Shown: piece by piece, positions 1 through 20,643 of the stretch
Layout of the letters: each line of letters opens with the position of its first letter
Numbering within the stretch: position 1 is the stretch's first letter
Notes under the pieces: generated by a model
Told to the model about the DNA's origin: nothing
Databases searched by the model: none
The model's input: only the letters and a program-made list of their open reading frames with translations
Position numbers and translations under genes: made by a program
IMG/VR virus record: IMGVR_UViG_3300037069_002635
Coordinates: 1-20,643 of that record
Strand: one strand, 5' to 3'
Length of the DNA stretch: 20,643 bases
From: a virus

Positions 1-208
1 CCTGCGCCATGTTCAGGCGCCCCAGTTTGTGGGCGTAGGTCTCCCCCGGCAGGTCCGGTCCCGCCAGCGCGTCGGTCAACTGGGCGATCTGTTCGTTCGC
101 CCGGTCGGTCAGTTCCCGAAAGAACGCCGGTTTGTCCTTGATCCCGTCGTAGACCTCCGGTTGGTACTTCTGGTACCACGCCTCGATCTGGTCCGCTAGG
201 GCGTTCAT
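1..208 (-). CDS. Helical phage-type protein, N-terminal part only (runs off left edge)
   Basis: The first 69 residues are visible, beginning MNALADQIEAWYQKY and followed by a helical, charged stretch containing ALAGPDLPGETYAHKLG. I recall similar sequences after the capsid-processing genes of actinophages, but I know no firm function. The ATG at 206-208 is preceded by GGAAGG eight bases upstream, a reasonable ribosome-binding site. Third codon positions are strongly G/C here, unlike the overlapping frame of the prohead-protease reading frame. I therefore take this as the real coding frame for the left edge. The oddity is that the upstream gene's frame has no stop before this one starts (see findings). 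Confidence 0.65.
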   Translation of the reverse strand, partial: MNALADQIEAWYQKYQPEVYDGIKDKPAFFRELTDRANEQIAQLTDALAGPDLPGETYAHKLGRLNMAQ

Positions 209-3920: not shown

Positions 3921-5761
3921 TCCCCGACCCCTGATACCCCGGTACTGCCGAACAAACTGTCCCCCGCGTCGGTTCCCGCAGCGTCCGAGGTGTCCCCGGA
4001 CCCCCCCATGGCAGGGTCAGCGACCAGTTTCGCGCCCAACGCGGCCAGCGCGGCGGTCCGCTCAACGTCCCCGGGCTCCCCCTCGTCAGGGAGCTCGCCC
4101 TGGGCTTCGGCCAGTGCCGCGAGGTAGGCGTCGGCCTCATCGCTGATGAACTCACGCCCCCAGTCGTCGACCCCGGCGAACAGCTCCGCCATGTCCGGCT
4201 CGGTGAGGGCGTCCTTCTGCTCGACCGACTCCCACGCCACGACGGACTTAATCCCGTAGGTGAGCGGCTTGCCGGGCTTCGCCCGAATGGTGTGCGCATT
4301 CTTACCGGGCCACTCACCGGTGGCCATCTTGTGAATGTTCGCGGCCAAACCGTTAAGGATCTTCGGGTTGTGCACGTACTTCGCCAAATGGCGGCGCAGC
4401 CGGTTGAAATCCCCGCCGCTGCCCGGACGCCACTTCGCCCGGCCTTTCGGATTGCGCGCCCAATACTCCCGCAAGCGGGTCGCGCCCGGCCCCGGTGAGG
4501 TGACCTTGAACTCGACACCATCAGTACCGGATTTCAGTGCCGGATGGAAAGAATGCGGCTCCAGAGTGTCGATCCGGGCGTGCACACTGCCCGACGCACC
4601 CAAACGGTGCGCCTCAACCTTCAGATGGTGCTTGTGCTTACCCCGCGCCTCCGGACGCACCTTGTGGTGCGCGGCGATCGCCTGATCCAGCGCGGCCAGA
4701 TGCGGCAACAGCGGCGGTGTCGAATTGCCCGGCGCCCACGTCTTGTACTCGACGCCGTCAGCGTCATCCTTGCGCCCGGACCCGTCGGTCGTGGCGGTCT
4801 CCAGACTGCCGATCCGCTCGTGCACGTGATGATCCGCGCCCAGGCGGTGCGCGGACGCCTTGAGGCGTTTGACGTTCTCCGCGCGCTCCTGGGCGGGCAG
4901 CTCGTGATGCGCCCCGATCGCGTCATCGAGGTCTTTCAGAGACTCCAGTTTCGGCCGGTCACCGCCGACGACACGGCCCATGTTCATGTCGGTCTTGACC
5001 TCGACCCGACCGAGCATGTCCCGGGCCCACTCCCGGCCGACGTCACCGCAGTGCGCCGCAACCCACACCAAACCGTCCGGGTCCAGGGCCTTGCCCTCGA
5101 CCACATCACAGGCCATTGGGCCGTCTAAATCCCACGCTGCGTCGCGAACCTCTTTCGGTGGGGTGAAAGTGATGCCCTTGATCTGCGGACCGGCCACGGT
5201 GTCCTCCTGCTCGCCCAACGGCACATCAGTCACGTCGCCACCCAGCGCCAACCGCAATGTCGAGAACCGCACCGGCCCGGTGTAGGACAGTTCATCGGGT
5301 CCGATGTCCTGCCCGGCCGTGATATGCGGGATGAACGGCTGGTGCTGCGGTGGCGGGGTCGGGTAATCCTGTCCCGTGGTCGCCGTCCAGGTGGCCCATT
5401 TGTGCAACGGTTCGAGGTCGGGCGTGTCGGACACCAGGTAGACCACGCACGGGGATTTGTCCCCGTCAGCACCGCCGTCGGGATTGAACAGGGCGTGGCC
5501 CATGATCCGGGCGTTCACCGGATCCAAACCCGGCCCGCTGGCCGTCACGAGCGCCTTGAGGTGATCGGCCTGTCCCGGCGCCCAGGTGCTGACGTCATCC
5601 CCCAGGTAGATCAACGTCAGGTGGAGCTCACTGGCGGGCAGGCCACCCTCGACGGCGAGCTGCTCGACGTTGTCGGGGATCAGGGCGAGCATCCCCCCGG
5701 TTTGCGGGTCATCGGTGGGGGGCGTGGCGGGGGTGGCGACAACATCGGGGTTATCGGCCAT
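3917..5761 (-). CDS. Large phage head-region protein: 2H phosphoesterase-like domain plus tandem repeats
   Basis: 614 residues from the ATG at 5759-5761, which overlaps the end of the upstream zinc-cluster gene by 11 bases. The N-terminal domain has two HxT motifs, LHLTLIYLG (His47, Thr49) and FIPHITAGQ (His146, Thr148), the signature of 2H phosphoesterases (LigT / 2'-5' RNA ligase-like), which act on cyclic phosphodiester or 2'-5' linkages. Two tandem repeats of about 75-80 residues follow (about 275-345 and 354-424), each with a LD-AI-AHH core, an AHRLGA motif, an RI-x-x-L helix end and a terminal DGVE(Y/F)K. Residues 425-490 (REYWARNP, GGDFNRLRRHLAKYV, ATGEWPGK) resemble a segment I recall from actinophage structural proteins. 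The earlier in-frame ATG at 5908 lies inside the upstream gene and gives an Arg-rich, shadow-like N-terminus, so I rejected it. The protease gene downstream is coupled by a GTGA overlap. Confidence 0.8.
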   Translation of the reverse strand: MADNPDVVATPATPPTDDPQTGGMLALIPDNVEQLAVEGGLPASELHLTLIYLGDDVSTWAPGQADHLKALVTASGPGLDPVNARIMGHALFNPDGGADGDKSPCVVYLVSDTPDLEPLHKWATWTATTGQDYPTPPPQHQPFIPHITAGQDIGPDELSYTGPVRFSTLRLALGGDVTDVPLGEQEDTVAGPQIKGITFTPPKEVRDAAWDLDGPMACDVVEGKALDPDGLVWVAAHCGDVGREWARDMLGRVEVKTDMNMGRVVGGDRPKLESLKDLDDAIGAHHELPAQERAENVKRLKASAHRLGADHHVHERIGSLETATTDGSGRKDDADGVEYKTWAPGNSTPPLLPHLAALDQAIAAHHKVRPEARGKHKHHLKVEAHRLGASGSVHARIDTLEPHSFHPALKSGTDGVEFKVTSPGPGATRLREYWARNPKGRAKWRPGSGGDFNRLRRHLAKYVHNPKILNGLAANIHKMATGEWPGKNAHTIRAKPGKPLTYGIKSVVAWESVEQKDALTEPDMAELFAGVDDWGREFISDEADAYLAALAEAQGELPDEGEPGDVERTAALAALGAKLVADPAMGGSGDTSDAAGTDAGDSLFGSTGVSGVGE

Positions 5762-6181
5762 TGATCGCCACCAGGGGCAGGACGGTGCGCACGTCAGCCT
5801 GGAAGGCGCACACGAGGGGAATCGCGTCGGCCTTCGGGTGGCACGGTGACAGCGGGTGCCCGTAAGCGGGATAGTTCGCGCAGATCGGCGGCCGGACCGC
5901 GTAGGCACCGCACCGTCGGGTGTGCGGGTCGAACTGGTCGCAGCGTAGGGAGTACACCCGCCCGGTGGGTGACCGGTCGTCCTCGACCACGCTGATCACG
6001 TGCCAGTGCTGGCGGGCGAACGGACCCGACGGGCCGTTCATGCGATCTGGTGGCACGGGCATGGCGACCGGGTCGCAGCAAGCGCCGCACCCCGGCGCAC
6101 ATTGCGTGGGGGACTGCGCGGCGGGCTGCACGCGACGCATGGTGTCAGCCGGGGCGCCTACGATTCGCGGGGCACGCCGCA
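5751..6181 (-). CDS. Cysteine-rich zinc/iron-chelating (YkgJ-like) protein
   Basis: A small cysteine-rich protein with CAPGCGACC near the N-terminus, then LRCDQFDPHTRRCGAYAVRP and CANYP. This order resembles the YkgJ family of putative Fe-S or zinc cluster proteins; no reaction is known for most members. Its end overlaps the ATG of the 2H-phosphoesterase gene by 11 bases, so the two are probably co-transcribed. The start is unsure. I chose ATG 6179-6181, which leaves room for a promoter after the hairpin at 6302-6339. The frame stays open to a TTG at 6258-6260 with GGAGG just upstream, giving 169 residues; ATG 6141-6143 is also possible. The stretch between 6181 and 6260 has weak codon bias. 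Confidence 0.65.
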
Positions 6182-7416: not shown

Positions 7417-8364
7417 TCAGCCAGCGAGGCCGAACATTTCGCGGATCACTGTGTAGGCCCGAACCTGATCCCGGTTTCCACCACCGGCCAGGGCGCGGCG
7501 AGCGCGAGCGGTGTTGAGCTCATCCTCGGGCACTCCGCGTACGCCTTTGGCCCACTGGACGTATTCGGCGATGGCCTGGTAGGCGCACCACGCGGTGTCG
7601 GCGATGTTGGCGTTGGTGGGTCCGTTGAAGATTCCCCGTAGGACTTCCACGCGCTTGTCGTAGTGGGTTTGGGCGGTCTTGGATTCCCCGCCGAGCGGGA
7701 AGACGATGTCGACGATCTCCAGGAACTCATCCAGGCTGCACGACTGGTGCAACATGTCCAGGCCTTCGGCGACGATCAGTTTCATGCCAGCGGTGGTGGC
7801 CATCATGGCTTCCTCGGCTAGCGCGGTGCGCTCAGGCGCGGACACGGTGTGCCGGATGGTGACCTTGTAGTCGCGGCCTTCGCGGACGAGCTGGGGTTGC
7901 TGATTGGCGCACAGGACGCGGCAGCCTCCGGGGACGAACACGTTGGAGCCGGTGCCGTGGCTCATGAAGGTGTTGATGGTGGCGATGAGTTTGTCGTCGC
8001 CGATCACCAGTGGTTCGGGCAGGACGAGGGACACGAATGCTTGGGACAGGCTCAGTGCCCCGGCGTTGGCGTAGGTGGCGCCGAGGCGTCGGGCGACGGC
8101 GTCGAGGGTGTCGGCGTTCTCCTCGAATTGGACGACTTTGTAGTCGTCGCCGACGGTGATACCGGGCAGTGGTTTGCCGTGAGTTTCCAGGGCGAACTGG
8201 CCGGGGACGGTCCGGTGGTGGGTGCAGGTTTGGATCTCGACTTTTTCGACGTCGAGTCCGGCGAGTCCGGCTGCCTCCAGGGCTGCGCGGGCAGTGCCGC
8301 ATTGGGATACGTCGGTGCCGACTAGTTCGACGGCGGTGGGTGGGGTGGCGAGTGCTGTGGTCAT
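7417..8364 (-). CDS. DUF932 phage/plasmid-like protein
   Basis: 315 residues matching the DUF932 pattern (phage/plasmid-like protein, TIGR03299-type): GKPLPGITVGDDYKVVQ near residue 70, a central SHGTGSNVFVPGGCRVLCAN segment, TIRHT followed by a helical region, and a C-terminal AIAEYVQW segment. The family is widespread on phages and plasmids and has no established biochemical role; a DNA-metabolism role has been suggested only by context. I chose the ATG at 8362-8364 because GAGGGAG precedes it, rather than a longer in-frame start at 8427 that lies in the promoter. The gene appears to be its own unit, with a promoter at 8396-8424 and hairpins after the stop. Confidence 0.88.
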   Translation of the reverse strand: MTTALATPPTAVELVGTDVSQCGTARAALEAAGLAGLDVEKVEIQTCTHHRTVPGQFALETHGKPLPGITVGDDYKVVQFEENADTLDAVARRLGATYANAGALSLSQAFVSLVLPEPLVIGDDKLIATINTFMSHGTGSNVFVPGGCRVLCANQQPQLVREGRDYKVTIRHTVSAPERTALAEEAMMATTAGMKLIVAEGLDMLHQSCSLDEFLEIVDIVFPLGGESKTAQTHYDKRVEVLRGIFNGPTNANIADTAWCAYQAIAEYVQWAKGVRGVPEDELNTARARRALAGGGNRDQVRAYTVIREMFGLAG

Positions 8365-8372
8365 GGGTCTCC

Positions 8373-8388
8373 CTCGGTCGGTCGGAAC
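8373..8388 (-). repeat. 16-bp leader motif, copy 1
   Basis: GTTCCGACCGACCGAG on the minus strand lies between the likely transcription start and the ribosome-binding site of the DUF932 gene. An identical copy occurs at 14150-14165. Confidence 0.55.
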
Positions 8389-8395
8389 ATCCCCG

Positions 8396-8424
8396 AGTTT
8401 AGTGGGTCTGCGGGAAAGTCGCAA
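8396..8424 (-). promoter_or_regulatory. Sigma-70-like promoter of the DUF932 gene
   Basis: On the minus strand, TTGCGA (8419-8424), a 17-base spacer and TAAACT (8396-8401) form a good -35/-10 pair. Transcription would start near 8389, leaving a leader of about 25 bases with the shared GTTCCGACCGACCGAG motif. Confidence 0.6.
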
Positions 8425-8445
8425 CATTAGAGCATGCCCACTAAA
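8398..8445. repeat. Inverted repeat spanning the DUF932 promoter
   Basis: TTTAGTGGG (8398-8406) and CCCACTAAA (8437-8445) are perfect inverted copies 30 bases apart. One overlaps the -10 of the DUF932 promoter; the other overlaps the stop of the DUF732 gene. It could be an operator pair or the hairpin ending the upstream transcript. Confidence 0.5.
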
Positions 8446-9044: not shown

Positions 9045-10418
9045 TCAGACGACCGCGACCGGCGACACGACCGGCGTGGCCACCACCTGCCCACCACTGA
9101 CCGACGCCACCGCCAACGGCACCCCCGACGGCAGCACCACCGCCCCGTTAGCCACCCCGACAACCGTTCCCGCTGAGATCGCCACCGCCAACACCGCCAA
9201 CCCCGCCGCCACCGGGGGCGCCAACGCTAACGCGAGCGGCCCCGGCCACGAGACCTGCTGACCCGGCGCGACCGGGCCCTGCGCCCCAAGGACGCGATAG
9301 CCAACAACATCGCGGGGCACTGGCACGGCAGGCACGGACATACCCGCACCGAGATCTGGCGCACCGAGCACCAGATCGGCTCCGGTAGCTCTGTCCGCGA
9401 CATCGACCAGCCTCCGCGCCGAAACCTCAGTGCCCCGCTGCGCCAACGCGACCGCCTTAGCGCGCAGCGGGGACGGGGGCGCGAACAGCAGTGAACAGCG
9501 GCACCCGTAGACCTCCGGGCCGCCCTCCGGCAGCACCTCGGGGTCGGCCGGGAACCGCAGCCCGAACCCGCCGACGGCGAACTTAGCTCCCACCGGCCGG
9601 ACCTGACCATCGGCCACCCGGTGAGTCTCGCGCACCCGGTCATCCCGACGGGTTAACCACTGCACATGAGTGACCCCCAAGGCCTTCGCCGCCGCCAGTG
9701 CCGCATCCCCCGTCAGCGCCGTCGCCAGCGTGCGCCCGGCCAGCAATAACCACCGGCCACCCCTGCGGGTGGCCTCGGTGACCCGGTCGATCGCTGCGGA
9801 CAGGGAACCAGCGTCGGAATCGGCGCGCAGAATCTCGCCCCGGACATCGCGAGCGTGGCGTTCGTTGACGTCCAGCAGGCGCTTCACGGCGTCGTCGACG
9901 GTGGCGTTGATGTCGGCCCAGTCGAACGCAGCGAGCCCGGTGTTGGGGCGCTTGAGGGATCTGGCGACGTTACTGGTGGCGTCGGCGACGATCCTTAGGC
10001 ACACGGGGCGGACCACGTCGCCCAGCTCGTCGACGGTGCGCTCGGGGAGCACGTAGGACGCGTCGATGGCTTTTACCTCGACCCCTACGGGGGTCTTATG
10101 TGTAGAAGAGTCGCTTACCCCTCGAATAAATCCAGACTTCACCCCATCAGGTGACGGATTCCAGAATCGAGTGCCCTTGCGGGTCTTCGGGCTCCGCATC
10201 CGGGCCTCCACCACCGCCGCGAGGCGTTCGTTGTAGCCGGTAATCGCCGCATCCATCAGGGCTATCGCCTGATCCACCCGCACCGACCCCGCATCGGCCA
10301 TCGCGTCACGAACCGAACCCACCGGGGGATCCGGTGGGGCCTCGAACACCATCATCTGCTCTACGGGCAGCTCGGGCAGCTCATCGGCTGCGAGGAGGTC
10401 GCCCCCCGCTCTGCTCAT
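9045..10418 (-). CDS. MuF-like minor head protein with hydrophobic C-terminal tail
   Basis: 457 residues from the ATG at 10416-10418. Residues about 250-312 match the Mu F head-morphogenesis pattern: WLTRRDDRVRETHRVADGQ, a glycine-rich Phe segment, PADPEVLPEGGP, and the closing YGCRCSLLF. In tailed phages this protein sits at the portal side of the head and helps assembly; some MuF proteins carry variable C-terminal toxin domains. Here the last 65 residues are a hydrophobic Ala/Val/Gly tract that could insert in or cross a membrane. The start overlaps the portal gene end by 38 bases. GGAGG lies directly against this ATG, so GTG 10425-10427 remains possible. Codons for residues about 82-108 are unusually A/T-ending (see findings). 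Confidence 0.82.
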   Translation of the reverse strand: MSRAGGDLLAADELPELPVEQMMVFEAPPDPPVGSVRDAMADAGSVRVDQAIALMDAAITGYNERLAAVVEARMRSPKTRKGTRFWNPSPDGVKSGFIRGVSDSSTHKTPVGVEVKAIDASYVLPERTVDELGDVVRPVCLRIVADATSNVARSLKRPNTGLAAFDWADINATVDDAVKRLLDVNERHARDVRGEILRADSDAGSLSAAIDRVTEATRRGGRWLLLAGRTLATALTGDAALAAAKALGVTHVQWLTRRDDRVRETHRVADGQVRPVGAKFAVGGFGLRFPADPEVLPEGGPEVYGCRCSLLFAPPSPLRAKAVALAQRGTEVSARRLVDVADRATGADLVLGAPDLGAGMSVPAVPVPRDVVGYRVLGAQGPVAPGQQVSWPGPLALALAPPVAAGLAVLAVAISAGTVVGVANGAVVLPSGVPLAVASVSGGQVVATPVVSPVAVV

Positions 10419-12150
10419 CCTCCGCACTTTTGACCTGCGTCAAACCCCCACCGGGCACCGTGCGACCCGCTTGGGCCTCCATGCGGGTACTGGGCGGCCC
10501 GAAACCGGCGCCCGGCGCCCCACCGGCCCCGATCGCCGCGTGCGGCCTGGGCATCTTCATGGGCGGTGGTGGTGCGATCCCTGGAACCGCCACCCCGGGC
10601 GCCCCAGGGATCGGGACACTGCCCGTGCCCTGCCCCGCGCCGTCGAGATCCGCATCAGGATCAACCCCGAACCCGGGAGGCAACGCGTTGGGAATACCCG
10701 CCCCACCCGGGGCGCCACCAGACATCCCGGCCGCACCGAGCTGCCCATTGCCGATCGGCGCCGTACTGGCCGCCTGGGCGTCCCCATCGTGATCGCGCTC
10801 CCCGTCGTCGACGACCAGTCGGGCGGCGGGAATCCACAGCACGCGCGTAGCGGGCACATCCCACGGGTCACGCCCGCAGATCTCCCGGTACTCGTCGATG
10901 GTGATAGTGCCCCGATCTAGGTCGGCGGCGGCCCGATCCTCCTCGGCTCGCTTGTGCCGACCGAGCACCCACACGTCGGATACGTCGTGGTTAAGAAATG
11001 TATCGTCATCATATCCGCCTGGAGAAAGTACATCCAATTGTCCATCAAGTAGTCGAAACAGTGGGAGCATGCAGTGTTCCCACGCTTTGGCGTAATCGGC
11101 GTCAGCATTGTCAAAGGTTTCCCCCGATGAATCCGACACCACCGATTCGGGCAGGCCGAACGCGACACAGATCTCGCGTTTCGTCCGATCCATCGTGTCG
11201 CCCCACTGAGTGTCACGAGGAGTGCCCGACGTGTCGGTCCAGGCCATGTCGTCGGCCTGGATGACGGTGGTGCGGGAGTTGGCGACATCCGGGCCACCCC
11301 GGAAGCGCTGCTGAAGCACCTCCTCGTACTGCGGATCGAGGTCACCTTTGACGGCGAGCACCCCACCCGGTCGCCCGTCTTCCATCATGAACCTGCGGTT
11401 ATACAACCGCGCGTACCGATCGAGGTCCACCGAGAGACCGGCCGCCTCCACCGGCGACATGCCCCGCTCGAACATCGTCGGGTGCGGGGAACGCAACCAC
11501 ACGATGCCCGACGGTTGGCTCTCGGCGTCGGCATCAGGATCAAACGGTGGCCGCCAGTCGTAGTGCGGGGAACCGTTGGCCACAGCGGTGGTCACCCGAA
11601 ACGACTCGATGGGGACGACGACGCCCTTCTCATTAGGGTCGTTGGGGTCCTTTTTGCGGCGCCCCGGTACCGGCAGGACCCGATCAGGGTCCAGCAGATA
11701 CGCCGAGTGGATACCACCAGAGCGGGTCCGGACCGCCTCAACGAACACCCCGCGTGAGCTGAGCATGAACTGGGCGGTCAGGCGGTGACGCCACACTTGG
11801 GCGATCTCCCACTCATTGGCGCGCCGATTCAATACCCGCAGGATGCGGCGTTGCTCCCGGGACTGCTGATCAGGTTCGATGATCGGCCCGGTGTCGGGGT
11901 CATCAGCGCGCAGCACCATGCGCCGGGCACGTTCATTGGCGGCGACGAACTCCACGCACCGGAAAACATACGGGTTCCACGAGTAGCCCTCCTCAACGGA
12001 GCGGGCCACCGACCAGTCCACCGGGTAGGGCTGTCCAGGGACGACGTACCCGGACGGGCCAGACACGATCCGGGCATCGAGGTCACCTTGACCCGACGAG
12101 CCCCCGGCCAGCGCTTGGCGTAGGGCCGGGAGAAAACGGCGACGTGCCAC
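10381..12150 (-). CDS. Phage portal protein, HK97 family
   Basis: 589 residues. The portal is the ring at the capsid vertex through which DNA is packaged and released. Family features include NPYVFRCVEFVA near residue 60, MSPVEAAG near residue 230, the RGGPDVANSRTTVIQ segment, and REICVAFGLPESVV near residue 335. The last 120 residues are a Gly/Ala/Pro-rich tail not seen in typical portals. The GTG start at 12148-12150 has GGAGGTG five bases upstream. No terminase gene precedes it, which is unusual; a hairpin at 12209-12243 lies upstream instead. Codons for residues about 363-386 end almost entirely in A or T, unlike the rest of the gene. Confidence 0.92.
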   Translation of the reverse strand: MARRRFLPALRQALAGGSSGQGDLDARIVSGPSGYVVPGQPYPVDWSVARSVEEGYSWNPYVFRCVEFVAANERARRMVLRADDPDTGPIIEPDQQSREQRRILRVLNRRANEWEIAQVWRHRLTAQFMLSSRGVFVEAVRTRSGGIHSAYLLDPDRVLPVPGRRKKDPNDPNEKGVVVPIESFRVTTAVANGSPHYDWRPPFDPDADAESQPSGIVWLRSPHPTMFERGMSPVEAAGLSVDLDRYARLYNRRFMMEDGRPGGVLAVKGDLDPQYEEVLQQRFRGGPDVANSRTTVIQADDMAWTDTSGTPRDTQWGDTMDRTKREICVAFGLPESVVSDSSGETFDNADADYAKAWEHCMLPLFRLLDGQLDVLSPGGYDDDTFLNHDVSDVWVLGRHKRAEEDRAAADLDRGTITIDEYREICGRDPWDVPATRVLWIPAARLVVDDGERDHDGDAQAASTAPIGNGQLGAAGMSGGAPGGAGIPNALPPGFGVDPDADLDGAGQGTGSVPIPGAPGVAVPGIAPPPPMKMPRPHAAIGAGGAPGAGFGPPSTRMEAQAGRTVPGGGLTQVKSAEDEQSGGRPPRSR

Positions 12151-13108: not shown

Positions 13109-13834
13109 TCACTGGACGGTATTGCGGTCGGGCAGTATCTGCGCTAAACGCCGTATCGCCCGATGCTGAAGGGCCTTGACTGCGCCCGCGTCCTTACCCA
13201 TGGCGGTGGCGGTCTCGGCCACGGAGTACTCCAGGTCGAACCGGTAGGTCAGCACCTGCTGCTGCGGGGCAGTCAGGGCCGCCCGGCAGGCTGCCAGGTC
13301 GGCGCGCAGTTGAGCCCGGAATATCTCGTCGGTGGCCTCCTCGGCGGTGTCGGTGTCATCCTCGTGCCCGACCAGGGCGGTGCGCCGTAGCTGCTGAGCG
13401 AACCCGACGGAACGCATGCTGAACGGCCGGGCCTTGTCGCCACCCGCGTCGAGCATCTCCCCGGTGGGGACCTCCAACCGGTAGCGGCTGGACTTGGTGT
13501 CATCGAGGATGAGGTTGCGGGCGATGGTGACAAACCACGCGCCGACGTCGCGCCCCTGGTAGCTGACCGACCCGATGCGGTTCAGGGCGCGGAGGAACGT
13601 TTCGCTGGTGAGGTCTTCCGCGACATGCCGACTGGCCACCCGGAACAGCACGTACCGGAGCACCACACCGTGATAGCGCCGATAGAGCTCCCCGTAGGCG
13701 GCTGAGTCGCCCTGCTGGGCAGCGGCGACGAGATCCCAGCAGTCCCCACGCTCCACGTGATAGCGGTCGTCGCGTTGCACGCGGGGCGCCAGGCCGCGCA
13801 CGTGGGGGGCGACGGTGATGGTGCCCGATGTCAC
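13109..13834 (-). CDS. ECF-type RNA polymerase sigma factor
   Basis: 241 residues. Region 2 runs from about residue 32 to 105: DLVAAAQQGDSAAYGELYRR, RYVLFRVASRHVAEDLTSET, FLRAL, and the GAWFVTIARNLILDD segment that contacts the -10. Region 4 runs from about residue 180 to 232: ALTAPQQQVLTYRFDLEYSV followed by a helix-turn-helix (AETATAMGKDAGAVKALQHR). There is no region 1.1 or 3, which fits the ECF group. It resembles sigma factors common in Streptomyces and related chromosomes, so it may have been acquired from a host. The GTG at 13832-13834 overlaps the stop of the zinc-ribbon gene as GTGA. The operon promoter carries the GntR-associated motif. Its target promoters are unknown; the neighbouring head genes are the obvious candidates. 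Confidence 0.9.
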   Translation of the reverse strand: MTSGTITVAPHVRGLAPRVQRDDRYHVERGDCWDLVAAAQQGDSAAYGELYRRYHGVVLRYVLFRVASRHVAEDLTSETFLRALNRIGSVSYQGRDVGAWFVTIARNLILDDTKSSRYRLEVPTGEMLDAGGDKARPFSMRSVGFAQQLRRTALVGHEDDTDTAEEATDEIFRAQLRADLAACRAALTAPQQQVLTYRFDLEYSVAETATAMGKDAGAVKALQHRAIRRLAQILPDRNTVQ

Positions 13835-14139
13835 GCGGTACGCCCCAGGACGGCGTTGGCGAAGTCGATGCTGCACGGTGGGGTCATGTCGACTTCTTCG
13901 ACGCCGTAGTGGGCGCAGGCATCGAACTGCTCGGCGTCGGCGTGGGTACCACCGCAGACGGAGCAGTAGTGGTCACGGCAGACGAATGAGTCACCGTCGT
14001 CAGTGAGGCCGGAGTAGCCGGTGGCGTCGACGAGGACGATCCCGCCGTCGCGTCGCATCGTCAGGGTCACCGGTGCGTTACACACGATGCACTGACCGCC
14101 CTCGGTTCGGGTCGATTCGTTGGTCGGCAGAGTCGCCAC
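13831..14139 (-). CDS. Zinc-ribbon protein co-translated with the sigma factor
   Basis: 102 residues with three Cys/His groups: QCIVCNAPV near residue 18, CRDHYCSVCGGTH near residue 55, and a later Cys-rich segment (DACAHYGV). This suggests one or two zinc ribbons. The GTG start at 14137-14139 has GAGAGG seven bases upstream and follows the 16-bp leader motif. Its stop overlaps the sigma-factor start as GTGA, so the two are made in fixed ratio. Zinc-containing anti-sigma factors use His-x3-Cys-x2-Cys; here the nearest match is His-x-Cys-x2-Cys, and the gene lies upstream rather than downstream. A regulator of the sigma factor is possible but unproven. Confidence 0.75.
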   Translation of the reverse strand: MATLPTNESTRTEGGQCIVCNAPVTLTMRRDGGIVLVDATGYSGLTDDGDSFVCRDHYCSVCGGTHADAEQFDACAHYGVEEVDMTPPCSIDFANAVLGRTA

Positions 14140-14714: not shown

Positions 14715-14787
14715 TCCCTCGTGGGGCAATTGGTAGCCCACCGGCGTCTGGTGCCGGGGTGTCTAGGTTCGAGTCCTAGCGAGGGAG
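14715..14787 (+). tRNA. tRNA-Gln, anticodon CTG
   Basis: A complete cloverleaf is visible: acceptor TCCCTCG/CGAGGGA, D stem GGGC/GCCC with GG in the loop, anticodon stem CCGGC/GCCGG with loop GTCTGGT (T33, anticodon CTG, G37), and T arm CTAGG-TTCGAGT-CCTAG. The 3' CCA is not encoded. It reads CAG, the favoured Gln codon in G/C-rich genes. Confidence 0.9.
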
Positions 14788-14788
14788 C

Positions 14789-14861
14789 TCCCCCGTGGCG
14801 TAATCCGGCAACGCGGCGGATTTTGGTTCCGCATATTCAGGTTCGAGTCCTGACGGGGGAA
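14789..14861 (+). tRNA. tRNA-Gln, anticodon TTG
   Basis: Acceptor TCCCCCG/CGGGGGA, anticodon stem GCGGA/TCCGC with loop TTTTGGT (T33, anticodon TTG, G37), and T arm TCAGG-TTCGAGT-CCTGA. It starts one base after the previous tRNA ends, so both are probably cut from one precursor. CCA is not encoded. It reads CAA, and CAG by wobble. Confidence 0.9.
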
Positions 14862-14870
14862 CCTGGACGC

Positions 14871-15137
14871 CTAATCCGGCCAGCGCAGCGTGTAAACCTC
14901 GCGCTCCGCGTCGTACTCCCCGATCCGATAGGTCACCACCCGATTCGCACCCACAAAGGTGACCATCGTGACGGACAGGCCGTCATGTGGACCCAACTGC
15001 CCCGTGGGCGTTTGCGTCACCTGACGCAGGAACTGCTCCGTGCACTCCACCACAGGATCGGCTTGCAAGATCTCGATCCGCCCCCCGGGGCCTACCCGGG
15101 TCGTGAGATAACCCGGATCCAACTGTGGGTGACTCAC
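14871..15137 (-). CDS. 88-residue protein coupled to the GntR regulator
   Basis: The GTG at 15135-15137 overlaps the GntR stop as GTGA. The protein reads SHPQLDPGYLTTRVGPGGRI at the start and ends in a beta-rich SVTMVTFVGANRVVTYRIGE segment and YTLRWPD. It looks like a small soluble alpha/beta protein. Constant coupling suggests it works with, or modulates, the regulator. The longer in-frame ORF to 15374 is Gly/Arg-rich and lies within the GntR gene, so I rejected that extension. The stop at 14871 is nine bases from the convergent tRNA-Gln(TTG). No family recognised. Confidence 0.7.
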   Translation of the reverse strand: MSHPQLDPGYLTTRVGPGGRIEILQADPVVECTEQFLRQVTQTPTGQLGPHDGLSVTMVTFVGANRVVTYRIGEYDAEREVYTLRWPD

Positions 15138-15952
15138 CGGATGGCCGTGTCGAAACTGAGCCGATAGGCCATCGCCTCGATCACCGCCACCGAGTACTCC
15201 ACCGGACGCCCCCGCACGTAGAACACGCGAGTGATCTCCGCGACCGGACCGGCCGCGTCCATCCGCAACACCTGACGCTCCCGCGCCGTCGGTTGCCGCA
15301 CCCCCGCCTCCTCCAGCACCCGGGTCACCTCCAGGCCCAGGGAGAACAGCTCCGCGATCACCCCACCGGGCCACGGTTGCCGGTTCGGGTCAGCGACCGG
15401 CGTGCCCGACACGATCGACAGCGGCATCACTGAGACCTGCATCTGCACCGTGACGCCCTTGACTTGTTTGGTCAACTCCCGGCGCAACACGAGCGCGCCC
15501 GGAGCAAGGTCGAGGCGTCTGGCCTCATCGGGGGTCGCTGGGGCCTCGATGTAGGAAGCCAGCACGGTGTGTTCTCGCCACGCCACCCCGTGGTCGGTGG
15601 TGAACGCCGACGAGTCCGGGTGGTGTCCCCCGGTGCGGCGTAGCTCGTCCATCGCCTCCTGATAGCGGGCGGTAGACATGCGCCGTACTTGTGGCGGGGT
15701 CACAACTCGCGCCGGGAGACCCGACCGCTTGATGATCAAACCCTCGGCGACCAGGTGGTCAATCCCGTCACGCATCGTGTTACGAGAGACCTCCGCCATG
15801 GCGGCCATGTCGTGCTCACTGGGCAACTTCTCGTCAGGGACCAGAGTGCCGTCGGCGATGGCGTCGCGAATGACCCGCGCGACCTGCCGGTGCAGGGGCG
15901 TGTCCGCGTCGAAGCGGTTGACGCTCCGAAAGTGATCCGCAGTCAGTGGCAC
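15134..15952 (-). CDS. GntR/HutC-family transcriptional regulator
   Basis: 272 residues. The N-terminal winged helix has the GntR signature: TPLHRQVARVIRDAIADGTL, then LPSEHDMAAMAEVSRNTMRD, then LVAEGLIIKRSG. The C-terminal part (about residues 100-272) fits the UTRA effector-binding domain of the HutC group, with YIEAPATPDEARRLDL, GALVLRRELTK and a final PVEYSVAVIEAMAYRL strand pair. Such regulators repress transfer genes of actinobacterial conjugative elements (for example pSAM2 KorSA). The start is GTG 15950-15952, exactly where transcription should begin after the -10 TATGAT, so the mRNA is probably leaderless. Longer in-frame starts to 16024 lie inside the promoter. The gene is divergent from the transfer operon. 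Confidence 0.9.
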   Translation of the reverse strand: MPLTADHFRSVNRFDADTPLHRQVARVIRDAIADGTLVPDEKLPSEHDMAAMAEVSRNTMRDGIDHLVAEGLIIKRSGLPARVVTPPQVRRMSTARYQEAMDELRRTGGHHPDSSAFTTDHGVAWREHTVLASYIEAPATPDEARRLDLAPGALVLRRELTKQVKGVTVQMQVSVMPLSIVSGTPVADPNRQPWPGGVIAELFSLGLEVTRVLEEAGVRQPTARERQVLRMDAAGPVAEITRVFYVRGRPVEYSVAVIEAMAYRLSFDTAIR

Positions 15953-15958
15953 GGCCGC

Positions 15959-15997
15959 ATCATACCCGACCTGTCCGGCTGTCCACCTATCCGGACA
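15959..15997 (-). promoter_or_regulatory. GntR gene promoter with palindromic operator
   Basis: On the minus strand, TGGACA (15980-15985) and TATGAT (15959-15964) are 15 bases apart. The -35 lies in the motif at 15980-15997, plus-strand TGTCCACCTATCCGGACA, whose ends are inverted (TGTCC/GGACA). A wider inverted pair, TGTCCGG (15972-15978) and CCGGACA (15991-15997), surrounds it. For the divergent transfer operon, TATTGT at 16005-16010 is a possible -10 without a clear -35. Confidence 0.6.
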
Positions 15998-16028
15998 CCT
16001 GCGTGTATTGTGGTCGGAACACAAGCTG

Positions 16029-16067
16029 CGCCGGTCGGCCGGGTGACCACCCCTCGACCGACCGGCG
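16029..16067 (+). promoter_or_regulatory. Stable hairpin in the leader of the transfer operon
   Basis: CGCCGGTCGG (16029-16038) pairs perfectly with CCGACCGGCG (16058-16067). A small inner stem (GGGT/ACCC) can form in the 19-base loop. It ends seven bases before the GGAGG ribosome-binding site of the DUF2637-like gene, so it could affect translation or transcription of the operon. Confidence 0.5.
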
Positions 16068-16084
16068 TTACCAACGGAGGCGAC

Positions 16085-16957
16085 ATGACCACGATCGAGC
16101 GCCCAGAGGTCGAGTTGTTCGACACCTGGACCCGGCGCGGTCTCCTACTCGCCCTCGTGCCGCTACTCGGTTGGGACGCGGCCAGCGTGTTCCTGCTCGC
16201 CAAAGCCTGCGGGGTGCCCTTCTACGTCGCGTGGATCCCCGCCATCTCCACCTCGGGGATCATGCTGGCCAGTAGTCGGATCGCCATGCGCGCCGTCGAC
16301 ACTGATGTTCGGCGCCAAGCGAAAATCCTGTCCTGGGCGGGTCTCACGCTCGGGGTCATCATCGCCGCTGTGCAGCACTCCCTCCCGGCAACACTGACCG
16401 CTGTGCCCTGGGAGGCCATGGCGTTGATCGGGGCCCTGCCGGTGGCCATGGGCGGCTGGTTGTGGCACATCTACTCCCTGGCGCATGCCCGCGCCGAGCA
16501 GGCCACCGCCGCCGCGTACGCGGCGCGTCTCGCCCACACTGAAGCGGCCGAGACGGCCCGAAACGCTCGAATCGCCGCAGAGACCGCGCGGGCGGCCGAC
16601 CTGGCGCACCAGCGGGAACTCGCCGACATCGCCACCCGCACCGCCAACGCGCAACGGGCCGCGACTGAACTCGCCGAACGTCAGCGAGCGGCCAGCGTGG
16701 AGCTGGTCAACACGGCGCTGACCAAACCGAACCTGCACAGCGTCCCGAAACGACCCGAAGCGAAACGCGCCGCGAAACCGACCCTGCGGGACGCTGCGGT
16801 CACCGAGCTGGTCATCCGGCACCGCGCGGGGCGTGACATCACGACCACCGTCGCTGCCGAGCTTGATGCGGCTATCGGGGCCAGCAAGGGCTACTGCAAG
16901 AAGTTCCTCCCAGAGATCATCGAGCACGTTCTGAGAGCTGAGCGGGGGGTGGCGTAA
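16085..16957 (+). CDS. DUF2637 / SpdB-like membrane protein
   Basis: 290 residues. Four hydrophobic segments lie in the first 140 residues: GLLLALVPLLGWDAASVFLL, VPFYVAWIPAISTSGIMLA, LSWAGLTLGVIIAAVQ, and MALIGALPVAMGGWLWHIYS. Then follow a long Ala-rich helical region (about 140-230, ARAEQATAAAYAARLAHTEA type, probable coiled coil) and a C-terminal DNA-binding-like segment (TLRDAAVTELVIRHRAGRD). The membrane part fits DUF2637, often next to transfer genes in Streptomyces elements and compared with Spd proteins that spread DNA between mycelial compartments. The ATG at 16085 has GGAGG seven bases upstream. The next gene overlaps the stop by one base. Confidence 0.78.
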   Translation: MTTIERPEVELFDTWTRRGLLLALVPLLGWDAASVFLLAKACGVPFYVAWIPAISTSGIMLASSRIAMRAVDTDVRRQAKILSWAGLTLGVIIAAVQHSLPATLTAVPWEAMALIGALPVAMGGWLWHIYSLAHARAEQATAAAYAARLAHTEAAETARNARIAAETARAADLAHQRELADIATRTANAQRAATELAERQRAASVELVNTALTKPNLHSVPKRPEAKRAAKPTLRDAAVTELVIRHRAGRDITTTVAAELDAAIGASKGYCKKFLPEIIEHVLRAERGVA

Positions 16958-18219
16958 TGGCCACACGGACCAAGTCGTCACCGAAACCCAAACCGGATCC
17001 GGCGCCGAAAGCCAAAGGCAAACCGCCCCGCTCGGTGTGGGCCAAAGGCGGGCAGAAAAAGCCCACCAATGCACTGGAGTGGGTCGGCTACCACCTCAGC
17101 AAGCGGGCCGACAAGTACGCCCTCACCCGGGGCGTCCGGGGCCTGCACCGCAAAGGGCTCGCCCAGGCGGAGCGGGCGCGGGAACGCAAACAGGCCCGCA
17201 AGGAACACCGTCACAGCGCCCACCCGACCTGGGGGGAACGCCGCACCCAACGCAAGTTCGACCAGCAAGCCAACAGTGGCGGTGGCAAAGCCACCGTGGC
17301 GTGCATCGGGTGCGGCGCCAACCTGAACACGGAAGCCGCCCGCACCCACCACTGCCCCACGGACGCGGCGGAAACCAAACGCATCGAGGCCGCGCGGGAT
17401 AAGTGGCGTGCCCGCGCCGGGTACGGGGGACCGACGGCGACCGCCCCGGCCGCGAGCTCGGCGGCGGCGCAACTGGCCGCCCCTCCCATCGACCACCGGG
17501 AGGCGATCAAACAGTGGAAGTGGGACCGCAAAGCGTGGCGCCGGGAGAACATGACCCGCCCGGCGCGGGCCTGGGACACCGTGCAGCGCTACGACTCCGT
17601 CTTCGCGGGCAACGGCGCGAAATGCGGGGCGTGCGGCATCGCCGTCCACGGCGACGAATGGGACACCCACGACTGCGGCAACACCCCCTACACCCATCCC
17701 CGCTACCAGCAGGCGCCGGTCACCCCGACCCCCGCCCCGACACCGCAACCGAGCACGAGCAGCACCCCGGCAGCAACCAACGGAGGGAGGCCCCCAGTGG
17801 CCTTTGGTAAAGGCAGTAGCAGCAGTAACGGCGCGGGGACGGCCACCGGAAGTGGCGCGTCCAGTCAGCACGCCGCAGCGGTCCTCCAGGCGATGGCCGC
17901 CTGGTCGCAGGACATCCCCAACACCGAGGGCGAGATGATGGGAATGCTCGCCGCGATGAACAACATGTGCGTCGGCATGGGTGGGTTCGTCCGCGAATTT
18001 CAGGCCCGCCTGATCAACATGGGCACCGACGCTGAGGGCCACCCGATCGGTTTCCACCCCTCGTGCGTGGCGCAACTCAACGGGGCCGCTGACCAGATCG
18101 CCGGAGCCGGGGCCTACTTCACCGCCACCGGCGTGGCCATTCAGCAGTACTACGAGCCCCTGAAGCAGTTCCTTCAGGGCGGCGCCCCCGCCCCGAAGCG
18201 CAGCTACTTCGCAAGCTAA
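16957..18219 (+). CDS. Basic protein with two CCHC zinc knuckles
   Basis: 420 residues of unknown function. Residues 1-105 are very basic (KPKPDPAPKAKGKPPR, RKQARKEHRH). Two knuckles have identical spacing, Cys-x2-Cys-x11-His-x-Cys: Cys116/Cys119/His131/Cys133 and Cys223/Cys226/His238/Cys240. After a Pro/Thr/Ser-rich linker (about 250-300), residues 305-420 form a helical domain with MLAAMNNMCVGMGGFV and ATGVAIQQYY. The basic and knuckle parts suggest nucleic-acid binding. The gene starts on the last base of the upstream stop and ends 12 bases before the translocase gene, so it is probably part of the DNA transfer machinery. A direct TraB partner is an inference from position. Confidence 0.7.
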   Translation: MATRTKSSPKPKPDPAPKAKGKPPRSVWAKGGQKKPTNALEWVGYHLSKRADKYALTRGVRGLHRKGLAQAERARERKQARKEHRHSAHPTWGERRTQRKFDQQANSGGGKATVACIGCGANLNTEAARTHHCPTDAAETKRIEAARDKWRARAGYGGPTATAPAASSAAAQLAAPPIDHREAIKQWKWDRKAWRRENMTRPARAWDTVQRYDSVFAGNGAKCGACGIAVHGDEWDTHDCGNTPYTHPRYQQAPVTPTPAPTPQPSTSSTPAATNGGRPPVAFGKGSSSSNGAGTATGSGASSQHAAAVLQAMAAWSQDIPNTEGEMMGMLAAMNNMCVGMGGFVREFQARLINMGTDAEGHPIGFHPSCVAQLNGAADQIAGAGAYFTATGVAIQQYYEPLKQFLQGGAPAPKRSYFAS

Positions 18220-18231
18220 GAAAGGAGTCTA

Positions 18232-20373
18232 GTGAGCAAGCGCGTCGGGCACGCCCCCGCAATCACCTCAGAGCAAACCTGGGGGGATTGGTACAACGAT
18301 CACCGTCTACTGCTCAACCCTTTCGCCGTAGGGTTGACGTTAGGCGTGTTCGGTGTGCTCGACGCGCTACTCGTCCCGTTTTGGTGGGAGACCGTCGCCA
18401 TTATCGGCGCGGCAGCCTTAGCGGTGTTCGTGTGGACCGCTGGCCTGCTCAAGCACGGGCAGCGGGTCTACTACCGGATGATCATCTTCGTGGGCGTCCT
18501 GTGGTTTTGTGCCCTGCACACACCGCTGGCCGCCGAGCACGTTTTGGGATTCGCGGTGGCGTGGTTGTCGGCGACTCTGCTGCTCGGCATGGGCTACTGG
18601 AATGACCAGCGTGAGCGTAAGCGCATCGAGCTCGACAACGAACTGAAGATGTGGCCAGCGAAAGCTAAGAAGATCGGTATCCCGCTGGCGCGGATCACCG
18701 TGTGGACGAGGACAGCGACCGGCCGGTACCGGGATTTGTGGTGGGATGACGGGGATTACACCACGGAGCAGATCAAGGGCCTCAAAGCGAAGATCGAAGC
18801 CACGCTTGGCGTACCCCGTGGCCAGTTGCGGATCCTCGACGTCAAGGACGGCAACGACAACATCAACTCCAATAGGGTCAGATTGTCGGAGAACACCGAA
18901 TCGGCTGCCCGGAAAGAGCCGGTGCCGTTCACGGAGCCGACCATGCGTTCCATTTGTGACCCGATGCTCGTCGGCCCGTTCGAGGATGGGGAGCCGTGCG
19001 AGGTCTTCTGGTACAAGCAAGGTTTCGGTGGGACGCACACACTCGCGGCGGGGGCGACCCGGTCGGGTAAGTCGGGCCTGTATCACCTGATGCTCGCCGA
19101 GACCGCTGACTGCAATGACGTGGCGCGTTTGGGCATCGACGCTAAGGGCGGTATGGCGTTGCGGCCGTGGGCGCCGATGTTCGAGTGGCTGGTGTGCGGT
19201 CGGGGCGCGGCGGCGGCCGATGAGACGGCGGCGATGCTGGAATGGCTCAACGCGGTCATGATCGCCCGAGAGAATTACGCGGGTGAACGCGGGTGGGATG
19301 TGTGGCGGGTGTCCCGCAAACACCCGTTGATCATTCTATATGTGGATGAGGCCGCTGAGGTCTTCGCCATGAAACTGGAGAACTTCGCGGCCCTGGAGAT
19401 GGTGGAGAAAATCGGCCGGATGGGTGCCGGTGTCGGTGTTCTGTTGTGCGCCGCGACCCAGTACCCGACGCTGGAAGCGATCGGTTCGAGCCAGGTGCAG
19501 GCCAACATTCTGCGGAGGTTCTGTTTCCGGGTGGAACGCAAAGCGCACCAGCACGTGATCCTGCCCAACGCCCTGGAGGTCGACGCGACGTTCCCGGACA
19601 AGCCGGGCGGCGACAAGGGCGCCGGATGGTGCCTCCTGTCCGACATGGGGACGATGAGTGCGCTGCCGTTGCGGGTCCGCAACGTCGACCGGGCGGGGAT
19701 CTTCGAGATCGTCGAGTCGTATTGGACACGGAAGTGCCCACTGGACGCGGTCAGCGCGGGTGTGCCGACCCGTCGGGCGGAGTACTTGGCGCGCAAGATC
19801 TGGACCCCGGATGACATCCGGCCGCGCTCCGATGACGACTTCGAGGCGTGGAAGGACGAGCTTGAGGAGACCGACGACGGGGGAGTCGATCCGGTGACGG
19901 AGGGGACTGGCGCGGGGACTGCCGGTGGGGAATCGGTAGGGGATAAGGCGGGGACTCCATCGGGGAATCCGGTGGGGAATGACGGAGAGGAGCAGGTCAT
20001 GGCGGCTACGGGTACGACGGAAGACCAAGGCATGTCGATCATGGATTTGGTGCGGCCCAGGACGGCTGACGCTGCGGCGGACTTCGCTGCCGCGCAGGCC
20101 GCGTGGAACGCGGAGCACGAGGAGTGGTCGAAGGAACGGGCCACGGCGGAGTTTTGGAAGGTCTTCCAGTTGGCCGGATCCAACGGGGTGCGGGTGTCGA
20201 AGCTGGCCACGTTGTGCCACCGGTCGGACACGTGGGCGCACAACCTGCGGCGTGAGGCGCAGGAGGCGTTGGCGATTGTGCCGGTGGCGACGGGGTCTCA
20301 GTTCTACAAGCTGACGACGCTGGAGCGGGTGCCGGAGCAGTACAGACTGCCCACCGGTGGCGACGCAGCGTAG
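18232..20373 (+). CDS. FtsK/SpoIIIE-type DNA translocase (TraB-like transfer protein)
   Basis: 713 residues. Four membrane segments occupy about 31-122 (LNPFAVGLTLGVFGVLDALL, WETVAIIGAAALAVFVW, MIIFVGVLWFCALH, FAVAWLSATLLLGMGYW). The motor domain has Walker A GATRSGKSG at 274-282 and Walker B LIILYVDEA with Asp372/Glu373. A C-terminal winged-helix part (about 630-700, VFQLAGSNGVRVSKLATLCH) resembles the DNA-reading domain of FtsK and TraB. TraB proteins of Streptomyces-type elements move double-stranded DNA between cells after binding short repeats near the gene. Partition or chromosome-type translocation is the alternative. The GTG start has AAAGGAG at good spacing. Between motor and winged helix (about 550-600) lies a Gly/Thr/Asp-rich linker. 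Confidence 0.9.
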   Translation: MSKRVGHAPAITSEQTWGDWYNDHRLLLNPFAVGLTLGVFGVLDALLVPFWWETVAIIGAAALAVFVWTAGLLKHGQRVYYRMIIFVGVLWFCALHTPLAAEHVLGFAVAWLSATLLLGMGYWNDQRERKRIELDNELKMWPAKAKKIGIPLARITVWTRTATGRYRDLWWDDGDYTTEQIKGLKAKIEATLGVPRGQLRILDVKDGNDNINSNRVRLSENTESAARKEPVPFTEPTMRSICDPMLVGPFEDGEPCEVFWYKQGFGGTHTLAAGATRSGKSGLYHLMLAETADCNDVARLGIDAKGGMALRPWAPMFEWLVCGRGAAAADETAAMLEWLNAVMIARENYAGERGWDVWRVSRKHPLIILYVDEAAEVFAMKLENFAALEMVEKIGRMGAGVGVLLCAATQYPTLEAIGSSQVQANILRRFCFRVERKAHQHVILPNALEVDATFPDKPGGDKGAGWCLLSDMGTMSALPLRVRNVDRAGIFEIVESYWTRKCPLDAVSAGVPTRRAEYLARKIWTPDDIRPRSDDDFEAWKDELEETDDGGVDPVTEGTGAGTAGGESVGDKAGTPSGNPVGNDGEEQVMAATGTTEDQGMSIMDLVRPRTADAAADFAAAQAAWNAEHEEWSKERATAEFWKVFQLAGSNGVRVSKLATLCHRSDTWAHNLRREAQEALAIVPVATGSQFYKLTTLERVPEQYRLPTGGDAA

Positions 20374-20378
20374 CGATC

Positions 20379-20483
20379 GGTTCTGGTCAGCACTGGTCAC
20401 CAGAACCGACCAGAACCCTCCAATTGGGCCTCTGGCGGCCCGCTGACCTTAGGGATACTCGCGGAGGTGGCCAGAACCCTCCA
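20379..20483. repeat. CCAGAACC octamer repeats downstream of the translocase gene
   Basis: CCAGAACC occurs at 20400-20407, 20410-20417 and 20471-20478, and inverted (GGTTCTGG) at 20379-20386. GGTTCTGGTC (20379-20388) and GACCAGAACC (20408-20417) form a perfect 10-bp inverted pair. CCAGAACCCTCCA is repeated exactly at 20410-20422 and 20471-20483. No gene is visible in 20374-20549. The cluster could be the recognition locus of the translocase, an operator for the next gene, or an origin. Confidence 0.6.
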
Positions 20484-20488
20484 GCGGC

Positions 20489-20502
20489 GTACGGGCCCGT
20501 AC
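20489..20502. repeat. 14-bp perfect palindrome
   Basis: GTACGGGCCCGTAC is a perfect palindrome flanked by direct copies of AGCGGC (20483-20488 and 20503-20508). It lies about 50 bases before the small membrane gene at 20550 and is a likely protein-binding site. Confidence 0.55.
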
Positions 20503-20549
20503 AGCGGCGACCAGAGCTCGACAGCACACAGTGAGGGCGGTGACGGAAC

Positions 20550-20643
20550 GTGAGCGGCGGCACCTTGATCACCCTGGTGGTACTCGGGTTGCTGCTGTGG
20601 CGATTCGTCAAGATCCAAGCCAACCCCATGACCCGCTGCGGCG
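20550..20643 (+). CDS. Small membrane protein, N-terminal part (runs off right edge)
   Basis: The visible start is GTG 20550-20552, then SGGTLITLVVLGLLLWRFVK, a single membrane segment, then QANPMTRCG at the edge. Short proteins with one membrane helix followed by a Cys-x2-Cys-Gly-x-Gly zinc motif are common in Streptomyces-type elements, and TRCG could begin such a motif; this is a guess. An alternative frame from GTG 20540 (VTERERRHLDH) is open but less protein-like. It is probably expressed after the translocase, possibly from a promoter in the repeat-rich gap. Confidence 0.6.
   Translation, partial: MSGGTLITLVVLGLLLWRFVKIQANPMTRCG

Follow-up and report, generated by a model that had tools for sequence, protein, structure and literature searches.

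We propose that the gap behind the translocase gene of this phage is probably a clt-like site at which its TraB-like translocase loads onto DNA, a reading drawn from sequence comparison. The window, by which we mean the whole stretch of DNA analyzed, is a complete IMG/VR virus record of 20,643 bases (67% G+C) and a fragment of its element. On its plus strand, positions 16085 to 20643 form an operon of four genes, namely, two conserved genes, an FtsK-like translocase gene, and a small membrane protein gene (Table 1). The repeat array occupies the whole gap between the last two; it is non-coding, lies directly next to the translocase gene, and holds multiple short direct and inverted repeats, as clt loci do. 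An earlier note on this DNA had pointed to a candidate TraB recognition locus here. Comparison supports that suggestion, as evidenced by a related winged helix, a TraB-like motor, and repeats behind plasmid traB genes, and so does an array layout that is kept in four relatives while its letters diverge. The position beside the translocase gene was also right, but the interval assigned to the locus, 20379 to 20483, was too small, and the locus extends over about 178 bp (20374 to 20551).

The octamer CCAGAACC, from which that suggestion started, occurs exactly four times in the window: at 20379-20386 on the minus strand and at 20400-20407, 20410-20417, and 20471-20478 on the plus strand. The three direct copies and one inverted copy are therefore confirmed, against an expectation of 0.75 in the entire window from dinucleotide shuffles, of which 0 of 100 reached four. 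They had been placed within 100 bases of the translocase stop codon, which ends at 20373; they do lie near it, but at distances of up to 105 bases. Two copies extend to a 13-mer, CCAGAACCCTCCA, and because this 13-mer ends at 20483, the earlier interval ended there as well. A genome-wide count of the octamer had also been called for. The octamer is enriched at the window locus, but it is not dispersed: a 120-kb relative has six copies, versus about five by base composition (a rough estimate), and only one of the six is beside the translocase gene. Since CCAGAACC is not enriched in the relative, it represents this lineage's version of a unit with lineage-specific letters. The repeats are thus real, but the unit looks like 10 bp instead of 8 bp. 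Within the 178-bp region, four-base matches at a distance of 10 number 14 versus 0.9 expected (0 of 500 shuffles), and the gap is the window's strongest place for 10-bp spacing. Repeated 7-mer pairs on either strand number 35 in the same region, whereas 300 shuffles gave 3.5 on average and never more than 12.

Table 1. Features of the window that bear on the putative loading site, with the neighboring genes
Feature	Position	Strand	Evidence or remark
Predicted head-maturation-protease-type protein	3917-5908	-	
Mu-F-type head protein	9045-10427	-	
Portal gene	10381-12150	-	PF04860, 2.6e-35
GntR/UTRA regulator, divergent from operon	15134-16024	-	Pfam GntR 1.1e-12, UTRA 4.5e-15
Operon gene, hydrophobic N-terminal segments	16085-16957	+	tblastn matches in 4/4 relatives; likely start ATG 16085, inside longer ORF 15689-16957
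Operon gene upstream of translocase, Cys/His zinc-finger-like motifs	16957-18219	+	tblastn matches in 4/4 relatives
FtsK/TraB-like DNA translocase	18232-20373	+	membrane helices at the N terminus, motor of the FtsK/SpoIIIE type, winged helix at the C terminus
C-terminal winged helix (residues 633-695, approximately), candidate DNA-reading domain	20128-20316	+	AlphaFold2, hhalign
clt-like repeat array	20374-20551	+	178 bp; whole gap from translocase gene to small membrane protein gene
Two inverted 10-bp units, CCAGAACCGA (20377-20386) and CCAGTGCTGA (20387-20396)	20377-20396	-	relatives-only matrix
Three direct 10-bp units, CCAGAACCGA, CCAGAACCCT, and CCAATTGGGC	20400-20429	+	register shared with relatives; matrix
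Core CCTTAGGGATACTCGCGG in spacer of about 50 bp, partial inverted repeats on both sides	20447-20464	+	conserved in three relatives
Second direct array: units at 20471, 20481, 20511, and 20521, degenerate units at 20491 and 20501	20471-20530	+	register of first array
Small membrane protein gene, start; cut by window end	20552-20643	+	translation and equivalents in L043, L042, L038, and L041

The array runs in a fixed order, from two inverted units through three direct units and a spacer with the core CCTTAGGGATACTCGCGG to further direct units; the units are of the CCAR type and spaced by 10 bp. A unit matrix built from three relatives only (G006, G002, and G004), with the window left out, found plus-strand units in the window at 20400, 20410, 20471, 20481, 20511, and 20521, along with both inverted units on the minus strand. 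The direct units found in this way share a single 10-bp register, and the distance between the two arrays keeps the helical phase, at about five turns. The third direct unit is a weak match to the matrix. The inverted repeat folds well and immediately adjoins the stop codon in every lineage tested. The core may have a promoter-like or structural role.

A portal search led to seven other virus records, four of which have the translocase, and aligned translocases added one further lineage (L040/L041). The distinct lineages are thus the window, G006 (120 kb), G002 (121 kb), G004 (77 kb; G003 is near-identical to it at this locus), and L041 (in record G008, 111 kb). The translocases of the four related lineages are 51 to 64% identical to the window's, and the layout is kept almost base for base in them while the repeat letters differ. 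Relative to the stop codon, the direct units of the window, G006, G002, and G004 begin at +27, +37, and +47 and resume at +98 and +108, running on to about +148/+158; the values for G006 and G002 are one base less than those for the window. Inverted units lie around +10 and +20. L041 shares this plan, but its first part is shorter (+17, +27, and +37, then +87 to +117). The unit itself reads CCAGAACC in the window, CCAGCACC/CCAACACC (CCARCACC) in G006 and G002, CCAGACCT/CCAGAGGT in G004, and CCGGAACC/CCGGAGGT in L041. Matches summed over multiples of 10 range from 27 to 65 versus shuffle maxima of 17 to 23, so that every lineage exceeds all 1,000 shuffles. This locus is also the strongest 10-bp array of each genome, although in G002 it ties with one unrelated 10-bp place.

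The core CCTTAGGGRTAC.TCGCGG is common to four lineages and altered in L041, and inverted arms flank it in the window, G006, and G004. Neither core nor array recurs elsewhere in these genomes, and for that reason a role of the core as a genome-wide phage promoter was rejected. Dispersed sites of the KOPS-like or stoperator-like kind were ruled out as well, since the array is found at this locus only and the octamer is not enriched elsewhere. A scan of viral contigs for CTTAGGGRTAC..CGCGG returned the related phages and matches without 10-bp arrays, which we take as chance, and a DNA search with the array against plasmids and phages gave no match. The translocase was also used in a protein pattern scan from a single sequence, which found no close relatives in viral contigs; one match of that scan to an alphaproteobacterial genome was spurious.

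Judged by its sequence, the translocase is a remote TraB relative. Its motor matches Pfam PF01580 above the gathering score (1.2e-5), contains Walker motifs (GATRSGKSG and LIILYVDEA), and is matched by FtsK structures. A profile of five translocase sequences aligned with eleven plasmid TraB-type proteins at an hhalign Prob of 99.8 (E 1.1e-30), and the alignment spans residues 27 to 525, membrane segment included. The window translocase had no match to the NCBIfam plasmid_TraB model, NF041214; the G006 copy matched it at 3.8e-17 with 62 bits. Because this score is far below the curated cut-off of 800, we call the protein TraB-like and not TraB.

The earlier note had also attributed a winged-helix domain to the translocase, and the AlphaFold2 model of the C-terminal 114 residues bears this out (mean pLDDT 84); the whole-length model, at pLDDT 45, is too poor outside the C terminus. 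The domain has the topology H-H-H-E-E, with helix 3 at residues 666 to 678. Its alignment to plasmid TraB winged helices reached hhalign Prob values of 94 and 91 in the two directions, with a single-pair E of 1.5e-7, and passes through the recognition helix, while the winged helix of the window's GntR protein, used as a negative control, stayed below a Prob of 1. The recognition helix carries R..SW in most of these phages and SRPW or DRSW in most plasmids. A fold search with the domain returned generic winged-helix proteins tied at a Z of about 8; FtsK gamma was absent from the matches, which carries no weight against it.

Plasmids provide the experimental precedent. The clt of pWTY27 consists of the last 16 bp of the translocase gene and the 159 bp that follow. 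The translocase binds this locus and protects the repeats in footprints, and the locus is required for transfer, which deletions lower up to about 1,000-fold (PMC3583192). The repeat sequence of clt differs between plasmids, and in pJV1 it is CCGCACA[C/G][C/G] (PMC3583192). TraB and its 8-bp repeats are the subject of Vogelmann 2011, as that work is cited in PMC3583192, PMC4170104, and PMC10191066. We examined the gaps behind 13 plasmid TraB-type genes with a winged helix for repeated 7-mers. All 13 gaps have short repeats, 12 directly after the stop codon and one, in S. globisporus, behind one small ORF, and the repeated 7-mers exceed all shuffles in 12 of the 13, with pWTY27 as the exception. 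Repeats of the TGACACC/TGACAG type, in both orientations, are present in pWTY27, Thermobispora bispora, Nonomuraea, Amycolatopsis, pRL1, pCQ3/pCQ4, S. longwoodensis, and S. globisporus. Those of the CCGCACA type are present in pSN22, pS4.7a, NBC_00104, and S. acidiscabies, and in the 42 bp that follow the pJV1 gene before the record ends. The repeats of pFP4 are weaker. Several plasmids even have a CCTTAGG-like core in midarray, such as GCCTTAGGTAATGCGCG in pCQ3, ACCTAAAGG in T. bispora, and CCTATAGG in S. globisporus. No such array was found behind the translocase gene of Kitasatospora NBC_01302 or of Gilgamesh-type elements.

Across 18 loci, the more alike two translocases are, the more alike their repeats (Spearman 0.64, p 2e-4), and the same holds for helix 3 (0.48). 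Beyond overall relatedness, helix 3 made no significant contribution in partial Mantel tests (0.11 with p 0.19; p values from 0.19 to 0.25), in a run in which the pFP4 helix was mis-picked. These figures therefore fit a cognate pair of translocase and repeat without singling out helix 3.

The likeness to pWTY27 and to other TraB plasmids (e.g., pJV1, pSN22, pIJ101, and pSVH1) thus lies in a non-coding locus directly after the translocase gene, in short direct and inverted repeats with letters specific to the lineage, and in an adjoining translocase with a related winged helix. The difference is that plasmid clt units are TGACACC or CCGCACA at 12- to 13-bp or irregular spacing, whereas the phage array is of the CCAR type, has an exact 10-bp spacing, and is borne by a phage.

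We infer that this winged helix binds the array and loads a ring there and that the phage translocase transfers DNA between cells. Winged helices of the translocase subunits would bind the 10-bp-spaced units, and with one unit per helical turn, the units would lie on one face of the DNA. Bound units would gather subunits, so that a ring would form around the DNA here and nowhere else, and a defined loading complex would result from the inverted pair together with the two arrays that bracket the conserved core. The motor would then pump phage DNA, double-stranded and intact, through a pore in the membrane into a neighboring cell or hyphal compartment, a step modeled on plasmid transfer by Streptomyces TraB. 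Another protein could be the binder, either the product of 16957-18219 or the small zinc-ribbon protein, as these are conserved equally with the translocase. Both upstream operon proteins are kept in four of four relatives, as is the small membrane protein, which is zinc-ribbon-like in relatives.

A regulator, either the GntR protein or the translocase itself, might instead use the array as operators that control a promoter in the core CCTTAGGGATACTCGCGG and thereby expression of the small membrane protein gene. Repeats do stand on either side of a conserved core, like operators around a promoter, and a divergent GntR gene is present in the window and in three relatives (G002, G006, and G004); many TraB plasmids likewise have a GntR gene divergent from the operon. 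However, a search restricted to sigma-70-type promoters found none in the region, and no second array precedes the operon or the GntR gene. L041, moreover, keeps the array, while GntR was not found there and an HTH_31/DUF5753 regulator lies upstream. In pWTY27, the repeats positioned likewise behind traB have been established experimentally as clt (PMC3583192). Control of the small membrane protein gene is an unlikely function for the array.

We regard as improbable, too, that the array is a partition centromere, in which iterons around a core would be recognized by a centromere-binding protein (the translocase or a small operon protein) and secure stable inheritance of a circular prophage. 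Its outline of two phased arrays on either side of a core does resemble parMRC-type centromeres, the map is circular with no integrase found, and a structure search with the winged helix returned the centromere protein AspA, at a score shared by many transcription regulators. Yet the neighboring gene encodes a TraB-like pump and not a cytoskeletal motor, and neither ParB (PF02195) nor AAA_31 ParA (PF13614) was found in the four related records, which are possibly incomplete; tyrosine integrase and resolvase were likewise not found in these records. A search for StbA_N/ParM matched nothing in any control genome and therefore has no weight. Replication-origin iterons, which would suit regularly spaced direct repeats in a replicon with a circular map, are very improbable: no initiator gene was recognized next to the array, there is no AT-rich stretch save a mild one in L041, and the cumulative GC skew of G006 changes direction close to the start of that genome and around 105 kb, not at 85.7 kb. 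That the gap holds only a transcription terminator plus chance repeats is scarcely credible, despite the well-folding inverted repeat after the stop codon, as no T-run terminator was found, the 10-bp array covers about 150 bp, with units before and after the core, and beats shuffles in every lineage, and its register is conserved in four relatives, which contradicts chance.

The loading-site interpretation raises the question of what kind of element carries the array. The analogy with TraB plasmids drawn earlier probably holds for the kind of locus; the element, however, is a phage, and probably a phage-plasmid, which could spread as a virion and by TraB-type transfer alike. G002 and G006 share one 121-kb map that is circularly permuted between them, and the closest plasmid-borne portal relatives (33 to 35%) reside on Streptomyces plasmids of 125 to 133 kb and a Thermobispora plasmid of 145 kb, several of them annotated as circular. 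Conjugative plasmid-phages are already known in Streptomyces, and pZL12 is a plasmid-phage with transfer according to a title cited in PMC4487206. Like the window's element, pZL12, pCQ3, pCQ4, and pFP4 are phage-like actinobacterial elements with TraB-type transfer genes. Behind traB, pCQ3 and pCQ4 carry repeats of the TGACA type together with a CCTTAGG core, and pCQ4 has a terminase gene nearby. They differ in belonging to another phage lineage, whereas the window falls in the portal group of Gordonia and Streptomyces phages, and the pCQ3 translocase is only about 25% identical to the window's and is paired with another repeat unit.

Two further elements are informative. The window's portal gene has a relative (33%) on the 145-kb circular plasmid of Thermobispora bispora (NZ_CP039125.1), which also bears a TraB-like gene with GntR upstream and clt-like repeats downstream, but those repeats are TGACACC at 12- to 13-bp spacing, unlike the window. 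Dense GGTACCGGTACC-type repeats also occur on the Thermobispora plasmid within and after the gene behind the array (L058, 5452-6600). Streptomyces phage Gilgamesh and its plasmid-form relatives (e.g., CP108533.1) have a portal and an FtsK-like translocase related to the window's. Members of this type (L056, L057, L077, and L078) are without an array after the translocase and instead have a GACGT/GAGGT-type inverted repeat in the gap upstream, a possible alternative docking site.

Should the loading site be what we propose, phages of uncultured actinobacteria would possess a full DNA-transfer module of the single-protein kind found in Streptomyces plasmids, consisting of a repressor, a translocase, a docking site, and an accessory membrane protein, and the boundary between phage and conjugative plasmid would be blurred in this phylum. 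A broader idea is put forward more tentatively: a tailed actinophage lineage might spread both as virions and through a TraB-like pore of its own that passes its circular double-stranded genome to adjacent cells, with loading at a helically phased 10-bp iteron array. If so, its loading geometry would be unlike that of plasmid clt repeats, and pump and docking site would be coevolving by lineage. The 18 translocase-array pairs, which fall into three repeat classes (TGACA, CCGCACA, and CCAR/CCGG), make the word choice of the winged helix in FtsK/TraB proteins directly testable.

Other genes of the window deserve mention. Two adjoining tRNA-Gln genes with anticodons CTG and TTG (14715-14863) lie between the head genes and the transfer-like operon. 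The predicted protease-type protein additionally resembles, over its residues 65 to 235, the terminal part of an RNA ligase family. A very large proline/alanine-rich ORF with a protease-like start is incomplete in the window (3-3920) and encodes 3,563 amino acids in G006 (59486-70177). A sigma factor with sigma-70 regions 2 and 4 is encoded at 13109-13876 and is also present in G006, G002, and G004, and a DUF932 gene at 7417-8427 (PF06067, 1.2e-21) is kept among related phages.
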